Assembly (NCBI GenBank): GCA_040218535.1
Contig: JAVJRG010000008.1
Coordinates: 124,001 to 188,000, forward strand
DNA: 64,000 nt
Direction: 5' to 3'
DNA from: Lacipirellulaceae bacterium
GTDB lineage: Bacteria; Planctomycetota; Planctomycetia; Pirellulales; Lacipirellulaceae
This document shows positions 16,045-22,181 of this stretch, piece after piece (within the stretch, counting starts at the first letter, position 1; every line of letters starts with the position of its first letter). Both the position numbers and the translations under genes were made by a program. Below the pieces are notes generated by a model, which saw nothing but the letters and a program-made list of their open reading frames with translations, was not told the DNA's origin and searched no databases.

Positions 16045-18609
16045 ATGTACGAACGCTTTACTGATCGCGCCCGCAAGGTCATGCAACTTGCTAACCAAGA
16101 GGCGCAGCGTTTCAATCACGAATACATTGGCACGGAGCATGTGCTGCTGGGACTGATCAAAGAAGGCTCCGGAGTTGCAGCCAACGTGCTGAAGAACTTA
16201 GACGTCGATCTTCGCAAGATCCGCCTAGAAGTCGAGAAGCTCGTCCAAAGCGGACCGGACATGGTCACGATGGGCAAGCTCCCGCAAACGCCACGCGCGA
16301 AGAAGGTCATCGAATACTCGATGGAGGAAGCGCGGCACTTGAATCACAACTATGTTGGCACCGAGCACATTTTGCTTGGCTTGCTCCGCGAGCAAGAAGG
16401 CGTTGCCGCTCAGGTGCTCATGAATCTTGGGCTCAAGCTTGAGGATGTACGCGAAGAAGTTCTCAATCTTCTTGGCCACGGCATAGAAGGTGAGGAGAGC
16501 GTCAGCAGCCGCGGCGGTCGAGGTGGCGGCGAAGGTGAGGAGCGTGAAAGTCGCAAGGGTGGCAAAAGCAAGACACCAGCGCTGGATAGCTTCGGTCGCG
16601 ATCTGACGGAACTTGCCAAGCAAGGCAAGCTCGACCCCGTGATCGGTCGCGAGAAAGAGATTGAACGTGCTATTCAAGTCCTCTGCCGTCGCACGAAGAA
16701 CAACCCTGTCCTGCTCGGCGAGGCGGGCGTTGGTAAGACGGCCATCGTTGAGGGTTTTGCACAACGCGTGGTAGATGGCAATGTCCCTGAGATTTTGCTT
16801 GAACGCCGCATTGTCGTTCTCGACTTGGCGATGATGGTCGCGGGCACGAAGTATCGCGGTCAGTTTGAGGAACGCATTAAAGCCGTGATGAACGAAGTGC
16901 GTCGTGCGAAAAATACGATCCTGTTCATCGACGAGCTGCACACGCTTGTTGGTGCCGGTGGTGCTGAAGGTGCGATTGATGCCTCCAACGTCCTGAAGCC
17001 AGCCCTCGCACGCGGCGAGATCCAGTGCATCGGTGCGACGACGCTCGATGAGTATCGCAAATACATTGAGAAGGACTCAGCTCTCGCACGTCGTTTCCAG
17101 GAAGTGCTGGTCGAACCGACCTCGGCCGAGGACACGATCAAGATTCTCGAAGGTCTTCGCGATCGCTACGAAGAGCATCACCGTGTGCAAATCACCGACG
17201 ATGCCACCAAGGCGGCTGTTGAGCTTTCCGACCGTTACATCACCGGTCGTTGCCTGCCGGACAAAGCGATTGATGTGATCGACGAAGCGGGCGCTCGTGT
17301 CCGTCTGAAGACCATGAGCAAACCGCCCAATCTCAAAGAGATTGACGAAGAGGTCGAGCAGCTCAACGTCGAGAAAGAGGAAGCGGTCGCCAATCAAGAT
17401 TTTGAGAAGGCTGCCGCGCTACGCGATCAAGCTGACAAGCTCAAGAAGAAGAAGAAAGACATCACCGCCCAATGGCGTGAAAAGTCACGCGAGAATGGTG
17501 GCGTTGTTGATGAAGACGTGATCGCGGAAGTTGTCTCGAAGATGACCGGCATTCCGCTAACGCGTATGAGCACCGAGGACACAATTCGTCTGATGAACAT
17601 GGAGGATGAACTTCACGAGAAGGTCATTAGCCAAGACGAAGCCATCAAGGCGATCGCCAAAGCCGTCCGTCGAAGCCGTAGCGGTTTGCAAGATCCCAAG
17701 CGTCCAACAGGTACGTTTGTGTTTGCCGGTCCGACCGGTGTCGGTAAGACATTGCTCGCCAAGGCACTCGCTGAGTTCATGTTCGGCGATGAGGAAGCCC
17801 TCATCCAGATCGACATGAGCGAATATATGGAGAAGCACAACGTCAGCCGTCTGATCGGTGCCCCTCCGGGATACGTTGGCTACGAAGAGGGTGGCCAGCT
17901 CACCGAACAAATCCGCCGTCGTCCCTATGCAGTTGTTCTGCTGGACGAAATCGAGAAGGCACACCCCGAAGTCTTCAACATGCTGTTACAGTTGATGGAA
18001 GAAGGCCGCCTGACCGACAGCTTCGGTCGGAATGTCGATTTCCGCAACGTGATCCTCATTATGACGACCAACGCCGGTGCGGACGCCATCAAGAACGAAG
18101 GAGGCTTTGGCTTTAAGAAGCCGGACGCCGACGCGGACTACGACAGCATGAAGGGCCGCGTGGTCGAGGAGATCGAAAAGGTCTTCCGCCCTGAGTTTAT
18201 CAACCGCGTGAACGACATCATTGTGTTCCGTCACCTCACGGAGACCGACTTGAAAGAGGTTGTCGAGCTGGAACTCTCGAAGGTACGGCAACGTTTGGCA
18301 GAGAAGGGTCTCGCCATCGAGCTTTCCGACGAGGCGAAACAGTTCCTCATCAAGAAGGGTTCAAACACGGACTATGGTGCACGTCCGCTGCGTCGGTCCA
18401 TTGAATCCTTCATCGAGGATCCACTGGCCGAGGAATTGCTCAAGGGCGAGTTCAACGGCAAAGACCTTATCAAGGTCGAGGCGAAGAAGGTGGGCGACAA
18501 GAAACAGCTCATCTTTGAGGGCCTTAAGACCAAAGAGGACGAGCCGGAGCCGGTTGGTGCTGGTGTTGGCGAAGGTGATGACGCACCCGCTGAAGACGTT
18601 AGCGAGTAG
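16045..18609 (+). CDS. clpC: ATP-dependent Clp protease ATP-binding subunit ClpC, 854 aa
   Basis: ClpC is a hexameric AAA+ unfoldase that feeds proteins to ClpP. Domains in order: double Clp-N repeat (1-150), first AAA module with Walker A GEAGVGKT and Walker B FIDELH, a middle domain containing a UVR motif ([18 protein letters not shown] near 450), and a second AAA module with Walker [22 protein letters not shown] and the C-terminal D2-small domain. The candidate ClpP-binding loop is around GGFGFKK. The UVR motif separates it from ClpA and ClpB. The Gly/Glu/Ser-rich linker after residue 150 and an acidic tail are typical. GAAGAGGAAT before ATG 16045 supplies the ribosome site. A terminator follows. 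Confidence 0.96.
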
Positions 18610-18819: not shown

Positions 18820-21033
18820 ATGAGCATCGTTGCCAAGCCTGATAAGGCCAACAAAAAGTCAAAGCCTGGCTATCTCTCGACGGTCCCTCCCCAGGAAATC
18901 TTGCCGATTATTGACGGCAACTTCGAGTCCACCGTCCGTGGGTTGTACGTCATTGGCGATGTCACCGGCATTCCTTTGGTGAAGATCGCCGCCAATCATG
19001 GTGTCGAACTGATCGAGCGGATGGAGAAGCAGGGAGTTTTCAAGACCTCTGGCGGCGACGGTGAGGGTCTTGATCTGGTCATCGTCGGCGGCGGCCCGGC
19101 GGGGCTTTCTGCCGCATTGGAAGCTCAGAAAAAAGGCCTGAAGTACGTCGTTCTGGAGCGCTCGCACATCGCCAACACGGTGCGTGGCTTTCCGCCAGGC
19201 AAGAAGGTTTACTCCGAACCGCGCTACCTGAAGAACAAGAGCGAACTAGCCGTCGAGGGGGATCGCGAAAAGAGCGAGTTCTTAGAAATGGTCCGCGAGG
19301 CGGTGGACTCCAACGATCTCAAAGTGAAAGAAGGCTGTGAAGTTCAAAGGATTGTGAAGCGCGGCGAGCATGACTTCCAGGTGGAAGTGAAAGAGGGCCA
19401 GCCTTTTGAAGCACGCAACGTCGTGATTGCGATGGGACGTCAGGGGGAAGCTCGCAAGCTGGGTGTGCCAGGTGAAGAGAAAGCGGAGAAGGTCGTTTAC
19501 CGACTACACACACCCGAGGATTATCAAGATCAAGACGTACTGATCGTTGGTGGCGGCAACTCGGCCGTCGAAGCGGCGCTCACTTTGATGGATCACAACC
19601 GGGTGACCCTCTCCTACCGTCGCGACGAGTTTTTTAGACTGAAGCAAGATAATCGCGAGGCGATCGACGCGGCCATCGCGGCTGGGAAGCTTGAGGTCCT
19701 TTTCGAATCGAATGTCACGGAGATTCGTGATGACGCGGTCGACATCGAAGTCGGCGGTGAGCAGCGAACGATCAAGAACGACTACGTCCTCGTGTTGATC
19801 GGCACATTGCCTCCCGTCGACTTTTTGCTCGACACAGGCATGGAACTGGACGGCGTCTGGACACTCAAGCGAGGCATCTATTGTGCGATTGGCATCCTGA
19901 TTGGTTACTTCACTTATTTCCAGGCGAAGCACTATACGTTTATGAAGCCTGCTGAAGGGTCGGAGCAAACGCAGATTCCTGGCTTCGCTTGGCTGTTCGA
20001 CATGATTCCGGCGAGGTTTTCGAATCTCTACTCGTTCTATTACCTGCTTTATTTCGTCGGGATCGCCGGGTTTGGTATTTATTGGGGATGGCGGTACAAG
20101 CACCGCCTCGTCTGGCGGAGGAATCTGTCAAACATTTTCTTCAACTGGACGCTCTGGTGGGGACTGCCCACGCTGTTGGTCGTCGTGCTGGGCAAGAACC
20201 CTTGGACGCCACTGTTGACGCGCTCGCTGAATGCTTGGCCGTTGAACATGACGGCTTTTGATTTGGAGCCGATCGCAGGGCAGGGCGAGCCGCCTTGGTG
20301 GACAGCGGTAGCGGTGTTTGGCGTGGTATGGGCTGTTTTTCTGACCTTTGTGATCCTGCCGGTCTTCACCCTTTTCTTTGGCAAATACTACTGCTCGCAC
20401 GTTTGTTCTTGTGGAGCACTCGCTGAGACGGTTGGCAGTGCGTTCCGGCACCGCGGACCCAAGGGGGACACGCCTCGCTGGTTGGAACGCTTTGGCTACG
20501 TGGTAATTCCGCTGGCGGTAATCGTAACGGTGCTCCACCTCTATGGCATCGAGAGTCCGTTCGGTTACTACAACACGCTGGTAGGGACGTTCTTTGCCGG
20601 GGCGCTGGCCATTGGTGTTTATCCCTTTCTAGGCCAGCGCGTTTGGTGCCGTTTTTGGTGTCCGCTGGCTTTCTGGATGAACTTCTGGGGCCGTTGGTCG
20701 CGATTTAAGATCTCCGCGGAGCCGGGCAAATGCATCGACTGCAACATCTGCAACCAGTACTGCCAGATGGGAATTGACATCAAGTCGAAAGCCCTGCAAG
20801 GGAAAGCGGTGACGTTGAAAGATTCGCCCTGCGTGGGCTGTGCTGAATGCGTGGTGCGATGCCCGATGGAGATTCTTCACCTGGGGGACGTTCCTGCAGA
20901 AAAGCCTTACCCAGGGGGAACTGATGCAGGGCCGGGGAATACCACGTTCGTTTCAATTCATGATTCACTCGACTTGCCAATTTTGAATAACACGACTTTG
21001 AAGAATCGAGGGTGTGGAAACTGTAATGAGTAA
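18820..21033 (+). CDS. Permuted thioredoxin-reductase-like flavoprotein fused to a NapH/CcoG-like 4Fe-4S membrane module, 737 aa
   Basis: Residues 33-68 (STVRGLYVIGDVTG, then AANHG) are the FAD-binding motif that normally ends a thioredoxin-reductase-like protein, yet here they come first. The usual start follows: IVGGGPAGLSAAL (88-100, FAD) and LIVGGGNSAVEAAL (241-254, NAD(P)); the expected C-terminal motif is absent after residue 348. No redox CxxC lies between the domains, as in YpdA/ferredoxin-NADP-reductase relatives. From about 350 there are six or so membrane segments with CSHVCSC (525-531) and CRFWC (610-614), then two 4Fe-4S motifs: C638/641/644/648 and C671/674/677/681, and a final CGNC. 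It probably moves electrons between NAD(P)H and a membrane or iron-sulfur partner; the physiological reaction is unknown. ATG 18820 lacks a clear ribosome site. Confidence 0.8.
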   Translation: MSIVAKPDKANKKSKPGYLSTVPPQEILPIIDGNFESTVRGLYVIGDVTGIPLVKIAANHGVELIERMEKQGVFKTSGGDGEGLDLVIVGGGPAGLSAALEAQKKGLKYVVLERSHIANTVRGFPPGKKVYSEPRYLKNKSELAVEGDREKSEFLEMVREAVDSNDLKVKEGCEVQRIVKRGEHDFQVEVKEGQPFEARNVVIAMGRQGEARKLGVPGEEKAEKVVYRLHTPEDYQDQDVLIVGGGNSAVEAALTLMDHNRVTLSYRRDEFFRLKQDNREAIDAAIAAGKLEVLFESNVTEIRDDAVDIEVGGEQRTIKNDYVLVLIGTLPPVDFLLDTGMELDGVWTLKRGIYCAIGILIGYFTYFQAKHYTFMKPAEGSEQTQIPGFAWLFDMIPARFSNLYSFYYLLYFVGIAGFGIYWGWRYKHRLVWRRNLSNIFFNWTLWWGLPTLLVVVLGKNPWTPLLTRSLNAWPLNMTAFDLEPIAGQGEPPWWTAVAVFGVVWAVFLTFVILPVFTLFFGKYYCSHVCSCGALAETVGSAFRHRGPKGDTPRWLERFGYVVIPLAVIVTVLHLYGIESPFGYYNTLVGTFFAGALAIGVYPFLGQRVWCRFWCPLAFWMNFWGRWSRFKISAEPGKCIDCNICNQYCQMGIDIKSKALQGKAVTLKDSPCVGCAECVVRCPMEILHLGDVPAEKPYPGGTDAGPGNTTFVSIHDSLDLPILNNTTLKNRGCGNCNE

Positions 21034-21257: not shown

Positions 21258-22181
21258 ATGGACAAGAAAAAAGAATATTCAGGCGCGTACCTGTGGTTGG
21301 CTGTCGCTTGCTTCGTGATGCCCGTGGCTGTTGCGGTGGCGGCATTCCGCAGTCTTCCCAAGCCTTACACCTACGCGGAGATCAAGCCGGACTCCTCGGG
21401 CGTTGACAATCAGCTTTGGGATCAACTCCTTCGGAATTATGTGGCCAATGGACTGGTCGACTACGACGGTCTGAAGCGCGATCATCATTTTGAAATCTAC
21501 CTCAAGCAACTCGCAAAAGCCCAGCCTGAAAAGCTCGCCAGTGACGCGGAGCGTCTCGCTCTGCACTGTAATGCTTACAACGCCTTCGTGATCAACGGCG
21601 TGATCATTCACAAGGTGAAGAATAACGTGCTGACCGACGTGGTGGATCAGCAGGACCTGGACGGCGATGGAGATCGCGAAGAAGACAACGTGTTTTTCGA
21701 TCTCCAGGAACACATTTTCGGTGGCAAGACGATCTCGTTGAATCATTTAGAGCACGACGTCATTCGCCCAACCTATAACGAGCCACGAATCCATGTTGCG
21801 CTAGTCTGCGCTGCCAAGAGTTGCCCGGAGATCCGCCCGGAAGCGTACCTGGGTGAACGTATCGATGAGCAGTTGGAAGATCAGGCTACACTGTTTGCGA
21901 ACAACCCCAAACATGTCCGCTACGATGAGAAAGAGGGGAAGTTGTACCTAAGCGCGATCCTCAATTGGTACAGCGAGGATTTCGACGCCAGTGGAGGAGT
22001 CGTCGGGTTCCTCGAGAAACGTGCGAAGGGCGAGACGCTGCTTGCAGGACTAATGAAAGCTGACCAGGGCGAAGTCGAAATCGTCTATAACGATTACAAC
22101 TGGTCGCTCAACACGCAGGGCAAGACAAAGACAAGCGGCGGGGGCAAAAGCTTCGGCTCAGGCTCGATTCCCAACGAGTAA
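21258..22181 (+). CDS. DUF547 domain protein with N-terminal membrane anchor, 307 aa
   Basis: A hydrophobic segment at about residues 8-28 acts as a signal anchor or signal peptide. The rest is a DUF547 domain, whose family contains the conserved CNAYNAFVINGVI (110-122) and IHVALVCAAKSCPEIR (about 178-193) seen here. A D-x-D-x-D loop (DLDGDGDRED) inserted near residue 133 looks like a calcium-binding site. DUF547 proteins have a papain-like fold and are sometimes predicted hydrolases; function is unproved. I chose ATG 21258; the frame extends 31 codons upstream, but through the repeat arm. It may be co-expressed with the flavoprotein, although the palindrome lies between. Confidence 0.75.
   Translation: MDKKKEYSGAYLWLAVACFVMPVAVAVAAFRSLPKPYTYAEIKPDSSGVDNQLWDQLLRNYVANGLVDYDGLKRDHHFEIYLKQLAKAQPEKLASDAERLALHCNAYNAFVINGVIIHKVKNNVLTDVVDQQDLDGDGDREEDNVFFDLQEHIFGGKTISLNHLEHDVIRPTYNEPRIHVALVCAAKSCPEIRPEAYLGERIDEQLEDQATLFANNPKHVRYDEKEGKLYLSAILNWYSEDFDASGGVVGFLEKRAKGETLLAGLMKADQGEVEIVYNDYNWSLNTQGKTKTSGGGKSFGSGSIPNE

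Follow-up and report, generated by a model that had tools for sequence, protein, structure and literature searches.

Can a flavoprotein carry the motif that closes its flavin site in front of the domain which that motif completes? This question is raised by an open reading frame (ORF) in the 64,000-nucleotide stretch of Lacipirellulaceae bacterium contig JAVJRG010000008.1 from position 124,001 to 188,000 of the forward strand (the window, in whose numbering its coordinates are given). An initial annotation of this ORF (Table 1) had described a protein resembling thioredoxin reductase (TrxR) whose C-terminal flavin adenine dinucleotide (FAD) motif precedes the Rossmann motifs and whose chain continues into a NapH-like iron-sulphur membrane domain; coordinates, frame and motifs were confirmed by ORF and translation. 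Our analysis indicates that the product is probably an NAD(P)H:flavin oxidoreductase head in permuted order whose chain continues into a NapH-like iron-sulphur membrane module.

Table 1. Features of the fused gene and its downstream partner (window coordinates; residue numbers refer to the fused protein).
Feature	Residues	Position	Strand	Basis
Permuted flavoprotein head plus NapH-like membrane iron-sulphur module, ORF of 737 aa		18820..21033	+	Pfam/NCBIfam matches, relatives
Relocated C-terminal FAD segment (G-D motif strand, then helix)	18-76	18871..19047	+	Profile, selection, AlphaFold2 (AF2)
GLYVIGDVTG, counterpart of the TrxR/GR 'GD' FAD motif	41-50	18940..18969	+	Alignments to 1dxl, 7bq6, 9lc9, 5tr3, 1k4q
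YpdA-like FAD/NAD(P)H core, stops short of the expected FAD motif	84-346	19069..19857	+	Pfam/NCBIfam, PDB matches
Membrane module, about six helices in the model	347-623	19858..20688	+	AF2 helices, Fer4_5
CSHVCSC	525-531	20392..20412	+	C525, C529, C531 invariant (23 aligned sequences)
CRFWCP, NapH-like CX3CP motif	610-615	20647..20664	+	C610, C614, P615 invariant (23 aligned sequences)
[4Fe-4S] site 1, CIDCNICNQYC (CxxCxxCxxxC)	638-648	20731..20763	+	Pfam, alignment, motif
[4Fe-4S] site 2, CVGCAECVVRC (CxxCxxCxxxC)	671-681	20830..20862	+	Pfam, alignment, motif
DUF547 partner gene (307 aa) with a membrane anchor at the N-terminus		21258..22181	+	Pfam, alignment, model, downstream position

Position of the closing FAD motif

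Matches to Pyr_redox_3 (E 5.9e-49) and Pyr_redox_2 (E 6.4e-34) in Pfam indicate that both the FAD and the inserted NAD(P)H Rossmann domains are present in the core, their Rossmann motifs beginning at residues 85 and 239. The flavoprotein match spans residues 85-344 and ends before the C-termini of the Pfam and NCBIfam models: the closest family, YpdA (TIGR04018, E 1.2e-52), is covered over model positions 1-262 of 316, and thioredoxin reductase (TIGR01292) over 2-250 of 300. The best sequence relatives in the PDB are YpdA/Bdr structures, aligned over the same residues 85-344, and the two best of these alignments end about 55-65 residues ahead of the C-termini of those proteins. By VIA, the core model aligned with residues 1-272 of 7a7b (a chain of 323) with Z 21.1, a root-mean-square deviation (rmsd) of 7.8 and 260 aligned residues. 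Foldseek and VIA-align both follow chain order; most VIA rows cover about 81-347, and those reaching about 648 (plus one from residue 14, 1hyu) include low-confidence parts and were excluded.

The closing 'GD' motif is present in the window protein, but before the core and not after the NAD(P)H domain, within STVRGLYVIGDVTG (residues 37-50). The front segment is no chance resemblance: the window and 12 relatives, 13 sequences in all, agree without exception in 21 of its columns. When the profile of these 13 front segments alone was searched against PDB sequences (E<=5), 96 matches were obtained, the best 60 of which are all flavoproteins of the GR, DLD, TrxR, AhpF, FNR or MDAR kind; the five alignments shown in Table 1 hit the closing FAD motif and the remaining 55 of the 60 rows fall at corresponding positions. 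The best E value is only 0.0038, and the weight lies in the consistency of the matches.

Restoring the ordinary order (de-permuting) lengthened the family matches of the window chain, from 2-250 (84.6 bits) to 2-286 of 300 (96.0 bits) for TIGR01292 and from 1-262 (180.3 bits) to 1-289 of 316 (187.1 bits) for TIGR04018, and raised the score of the dihydrolipoyl dehydrogenase model from 50.8 to 66.4 bits. In the PDB, 4gcm was then aligned over query residues 2-319 of 323, and a small gain was seen with 7a7b (123.4 to 127.8 bits, query 3-272). Furthermore, with a hidden Markov model (HMM) built from 11 ordinary-order relatives, the window chain rose from 182.3 to 198.7 bits once de-permuted, and 142 permuted heads gained 9.3 bits on average, as compared with -0.3 when the segment was shuffled (five shuffles per head). 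The de-permuted chain outscored all five shuffles in 116 of the 142 heads, and the match ended at position 313 of the 343 in the model rather than at 270 (medians).

The motif had been claimed to stand ahead of the core and to be missing at its usual place, and this holds well beyond the window: among 175 core-bearing proteins scanned at a domain E<0.5, the motif was found before the core in 152, after it in 19, at both places in none and at neither in four. Contig ends truncate three of these last (L010, L178, L185); the fourth, L003, is by its sequence a different, monooxygenase-like enzyme. Counted as distinct cores, 142 have the motif before and 19 after. All motif-before matches have E<=2.3e-7; motif-after matches range from 9.8e-7 to 0.19 in frames of 328-585 aa, the value of 0.19 being one weak match. 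A complete extra FAD motif later in the chain, which the initial annotation had named as the finding that would speak against it, was seen after the core in no protein (0/175 at the same threshold). Taken together, these sequence comparisons identify the arrangement as a true circular permutation, and neither as a misread start nor as an additional copy of the motif.

Selection on the segment and its packing

Purifying selection acts on the moved segment in much the way it acts on the core. Between the window and its relatives L007 and L006, the ratio of nonsynonymous to synonymous substitution rates (dN/dS) was 0.117 and 0.085 for residues 18-76 and 0.056 and 0.059 for the core, the pair with L005 being saturated (78-79% identity). 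Among L005-L007, values of 0.037 and 0.040 (one pair saturated) were obtained for the segment and 0.037-0.067 for the core; synonymous sites are near saturation in these pairs, and the dN/dS values are thus rough. Residues 1-17 are near neutral (pN/pS 0.69-0.89). The segment is thus of importance at the protein level, and translation begins close to the start as annotated. Translation starting only after residue 80, the other finding named as contrary, does not agree with segment values of 0.037-0.117 in unsaturated pairs against 0.037-0.067 for the core.

It had also been anticipated that the N-terminal segment packs against the FAD site. Partial support for this comes from co-variation and from the predicted secondary structure. 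The AF2 model has a strand at 42-46, a helix at 54-70 and the first Rossmann strand at 84-89. Direct-coupling analysis of 141 rows (effective number of sequences, Meff, 123) gave strong couplings between segment and core at 66-101, 47-124, 65-86 and 44-109, and the top 100 segment-core pairs cluster at helix 54-70 versus 93-111, at the first Rossmann helix, where the best block holds 10 pairs. In 300 random draws, the best blocks held 6.5 pairs on average and 9 at most; the block was noticed first and then tested against these draws, a control that ignores shared ancestry. Such a block would be expected of adjacent helices at the flavin site, and it supports packing of the segment on the FAD domain.

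The membrane module

The fusion to a NapH-like membrane module was borne out by a Fer4_5 match above the Pfam cut-off (38.9 bits versus 22) and by homologues with the same domain order. The 4Fe-4S and NapH-like matches begin at about residue 503 (Pfam, NCBIfam). The NapH model itself, TIGR02163, matched residues 509-687 with 49.0 bits, below its cut-off of 213.05. NapH-like modules are recognized by two CX3CP motifs and two C-terminal [4Fe-4S] sites; both sites are found here, whereas only the second motif, CRFWCP, has the CX3CP form, the first being CSHVCSC. Membrane helices were modelled by AF2 at 349-371, 403-426, 429-457, 493-528, 550-574 and 582-604, with low confidence for the later ones. 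No FMN-binding domain (FMN, flavin mononucleotide) was matched in the fused protein in Pfam or NCBIfam.

Distribution and architectures of the family

A single search of genome contigs yielded 28 loci, 23 of them full length (the others being L010, L015, L029, L030 and L032). The window and 22 loci make up the protein alignment (A1), L019 being omitted as close to L023. The homologues with the same domain order that had been called for were thus found: 25 aligned proteins share it, and L015, at a contig end, starts inside the segment. In L030 (6064-7111), the fused gene is divided over two frames, as a possible decayed copy or by sequencing error. A short form (window, L005-L009, L011, L012) can be told from a long form with an insert of about 80 aa near residue 390. 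The record titles of the 28 loci name Planctomycetota and subgroups, Hydrogenedentota, Lentisphaerae, Nitrospiraceae and uncultured bacterium; the title 'Nitrospiraceae' of L012 is misleading, because this locus lies in the same phylum (68 genomes) as the Hydrogenedentota locus L008. Matches were found in 88 of the 343 genomes of the window's phylum, its own included (E<=1e-30; order not checked for every match), and in 9/68 and 16/288 genomes of two other phyla (E<=1e-45), one of the nine (G424) having an ordinary-order relative only. The fused gene is rare closer to the window: of 38 other genomes in the same genus, family and order, one has it (G010). Besides, 55 plasmid records match a permuted head, two of them over at least 80% (Emticicia, Pseudoalteromonas).

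By motif pattern, 79 of the 142 distinct permuted heads are clearly NapH-type and have two 4Fe-4S motifs, an upstream 4Fe-4S motif marks another 45 (27 of these long-tailed), and 18 are of other kinds. A 4Fe-4S dicluster domain precedes the head in L061, L067, L068 and L069 according to Pfam, and also in L070 and others; some of these proteins end in a long tail that contains histidines and others do not. A neighbouring ORF with at least three CxxCH motifs accompanies 8/17 short-tailed, 3/28 long-tailed, 2/11 unclassified and 0/86 NapH-type members. Some of the upstream-4Fe-4S heads thus have multihaem cytochromes as neighbours. Because of these upstream 4Fe-4S motifs and CxxCH-rich neighbours, the head can be said to recur with membrane or extracytoplasmic redox parts. 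In a tree of 124 of the 142 permuted heads (filtered by similarity and length) and 11 of the 19 ordinary-order heads (core score >90), the upstream-4Fe-4S heads fall on one side of a branch with an SH-aLRT of 87; 53 of the 132 inner branches are open and L097 is a long-branch row. The rows were gathered with permuted profiles, so that ordinary-order relatives are under-sampled. The permutation may have arisen once, an origin with which this tree is compatible.

The DUF547 partner and the gene neighbourhood

A DUF547 partner had been expected nearby, and the downstream gene passes the PF04784 cut-off (80.0 bits versus 27). Such a gene lies downstream of the fused gene in 27 of 29 loci, the window included; it is lacking in L017, where about 360 bases of contig remain past the fused gene, and in the frame-split L030. 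In L023 (8425-9351), the DUF547 frame is interrupted by a stop. An HMM-based second count found DUF547 with 24 of 25 distinct members (loci up to L033). A DUF547 ORF was also present in the short flanks of 8/61 other NapH-type members, mostly more distant, and in those, likewise short, of 0/45 upstream-4Fe-4S members. Additional DUF547 ORFs occur within a few kilobases of the gene pair in L015, L018 and L021.

The partner has a lysine-rich start followed by an N-terminal helix at 9-32 and is membrane-anchored and probably periplasmic, the side being judged from charge. In its alignment (A5; the window and 24 loci, without L017, L023, L030 and L032), C184 and C189 are invariant in the 25 rows. 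The subfamily ends in an FGSGSIPNE-like tail of low model confidence, in which G300, S301 and G302 are invariant in the same rows. The DUF547 model has a predicted local distance difference test (pLDDT) score of 87.7; the best VIA result was Z 4.2 with rmsd 4.3 over 136 aligned residues. Foldseek comparison with solved structures gave 22 matches, none with E<=0.001, and a PDB sequence search gave 0 matches at E<=1. The fold may be a known one that was left unmatched.

Titles in the DUF547 literature mostly concern work on plants and other eukaryotes. A placement of DUF547 genes next to those for TVP38 and mercuric-reductase-like proteins, within arsenosugar clusters, served as a lead only; DUF547 did not appear among the papers listed for the TVP38/mercuric reductase/arsenosugar/DUF2064 set. 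In L009 (8918-9781), L014 (9198-10010) and L029 (2331-3212), the DUF547 gene is overlapped or followed by a VTT gene (DedA/TVP38-like), identified by Pfam in L009 and by similarity in the other two. A common family of nearby membrane proteins occurs in 7/28 loci and a GT2 family in 4/28. Three of these membrane proteins are distantly related to a GT87-annotated neighbour in L105 (E about 1e-5 to 1e-10); that of L023 matched no Pfam or NCBIfam family, although by eye it and its relatives near DUF547 resemble GT87. In L105 (2974-10736, Pseudoalteromonas), a permuted-head/NapH gene lies within a glycosyltransferase cluster that includes GT2, and TIGR04282- and TIGR04283-like neighbours both score below the curated cut-offs. 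Elsewhere in the window's genome (L188, 5052-10570, contig C5), a second DUF547 gene is accompanied by GT2, membrane-protein and YHS-domain genes; this GT2 is 64% identical to that of L023, and the membrane protein is related to that near the DUF547 pairs. Altogether, the neighbourhood weakly suggests envelope sugar or metalloid chemistry. Upstream of the fused gene, at 210 bp and on the same strand, lies a ClpC-type AAA+ gene (16045-18609), which had no match in the related loci, many with short upstream flanks.

Proposed mechanism and alternative explanations

The single-polypeptide NAD(P)H-to-membrane electron path put forward in the initial annotation is likely, as the best inference from families and anatomy. 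The last strand and helix of the FAD domain, placed before its first strand, would fold back on that domain and complete the flavin site, and the permutation would leave the chain terminus of the NAD(P)H side free to lead into the membrane domain at about residue 347. NAD(P)H would reduce FAD, as judged from the two Rossmann domains and from R267, which is conserved in more than 93%; electrons would pass from FAD to the two [4Fe-4S] clusters near the C-terminus, on the cytoplasmic side, and then by way of both cysteine motifs into the membrane, either to quinone or across it to the DUF547 partner. The positive-inside rule, by which membrane topology is assigned, was applied by eye and would put the head at the cytoplasmic face, together with the clusters and both cysteine motifs.

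Several observations weigh against this account. The mean pLDDT of the AF2 model is only 64.5, and 26 of the 142 de-permuted chains did not outscore every shuffle. Co-variation from 141 rows is thin; the pairs 66-282, 51-149 and 75 to 78 with 242 misfit a single contact patch, and the pairing of strand 42-46 with 199-206, which would be expected from the sheet order, is absent from the top 40 segment-core pairs, where 44-109 and 44-105 do rank. On the outer side, no haem or flavin domain was predicted. The couplings, moreover, fit packing within the chain and a swap between subunits equally well. The N-terminal segment might then fill the FAD site of a partner chain, with a dimer as the working unit, and TrxRs are homodimers (PMC8564101). 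Only about 13 residues separate helix 54-70 from the strand at 84, though, which suits a fold-back within the same chain and makes the swap unlikely. An artefact is hardly conceivable, whether from a wrongly read start, from an error of frame or from the FAD motif having been duplicated by chance: no clear ribosome-binding site was seen ahead of the ATG at 18820, which would favour it, whereas an in-frame TAA lies two codons 5' of this ATG, the same order recurs in 142 distinct proteins, no second motif occurs in any of the 175 and the segment is selected according to its dN/dS, so that this explanation was rejected.

Two further alternatives concern the reaction. YpdA and TrxR being the closest models, the protein could be a membrane-bound disulphide reductase of the bacillithiol or thioredoxin type, to which the iron-sulphur part donates electrons or is accessory. 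The scores, however, lie far below the curated cut-offs of both families (178.7 bits versus 339.9 for TIGR04018 and 82.1 versus 343.45 for TIGR01292, whose CxxC is also lacking). The active-site cysteine of YpdA/Bdr is that of GGGPCG, and the window head has GGGPAG at this place. C173 is its only cysteine, and no column of the head has a conserved one (at most 23% in any column of 141 rows), so that a redox dithiol is absent, as would be expected of an electron-transfer enzyme. We consider a disulphide reductase very improbable. The flow might also be reversed, with quinol or a periplasmic donor reducing NAD(P)+ through the clusters. Such reverse electron transport from quinol to NAD(P)+ needs an input of energy, and no ion pump is among the families found in the fused chain and its partner; we hold this direction to be improbable, even though NapH modules are thought to draw electrons from quinol (PMC5928378, PMC8238504).

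A wider scenario built on the permuted head with its membrane iron-sulphur module is possible, albeit doubtful. In it, a YpdA/TrxR-like flavoprotein would have been permuted once, in the distant past, so that its NAD(P)H domain acquired a free end for joining to the membrane. From this event would descend a large and so far unrecognised family of NAD(P)H heads, which serve membrane and extracytoplasmic electron chains of three kinds: NapH-type, 4Fe-4S with a multihaem cytochrome, and 4Fe-4S with a histidine-containing membrane tail. In the window's branch, a one-chain NAD(P)H-to-periplasm reductase would drive a DUF547 partner, itself of unsolved fold, tied to lipid-linked sugar or metalloid chemistry, in keeping with the GT2, GT87-like and TIGR04282/04283-like neighbours. 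Among the literature matches listed (titles and abstracts, with subscription journals sparsely covered), there was no natural circular permutation within the FAD domain of a TrxR/GR-superfamily protein. A NapH-like system with a built-in NAD(P)H head would make it possible to test in a single purified polypeptide what feeds such modules, and DUF547, without a matching solved structure, gains a constant neighbour.

Comparison with known systems

With YpdA/Bdr (TIGR04018; 7a7b, 7apr, 7a76), its best match in core sequence and fold, the window protein shares the two Rossmann domains; in contrast to it, the order of the FAD domain is permuted, the GGGPxG loop lacks cysteine and a membrane iron-sulphur module is fused to the head. 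The TrxR-type ferredoxin:NADP+ oxidoreductases (5ygq, 3ab1, 3lzw) are the same two-domain flavoproteins and have no redox CxxC. Like them, the window head would pass electrons to iron-sulphur carriers, but their FAD motif follows the NAD(P)H domain (268-294 of 342 in 5ygq) whereas here it precedes it, and here the iron-sulphur partner is part of the same chain.

Two proteins labelled only 'NAD(P)-binding domain-containing protein' have the same permuted head. In WP_015031197.1, from an Emticicia oligotrophica plasmid, the 4Fe-4S part comes first, and the gene is flanked by a CcsA-hypothetical pair on one side and by two cytochrome c3-family genes on the other; WP_007378779.1, from Pseudoalteromonas sp. 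Bsw20308, is of NapH type and lies in a glycosyltransferase cluster.

NapH-like modules are described as taking electrons from a donor, often quinol, and handing them on (PMC5928378, PMC8238504), and the reactions of most such systems are unknown according to PMC8238504. The main text of PMC8238504 contains 0 occurrences of 'thioredoxin reductase' and of 'Planctomycet'. The window protein resembles NapH, NosR and PceC (RdhC) in its membrane helices with two cysteine motifs and, as described in PMC5928378, NapH and NosR in its two C-terminal [4Fe-4S] sites. It differs from all three in its first motif, CSHVCSC, and in its donor head, which is an NAD(P)H flavoprotein.

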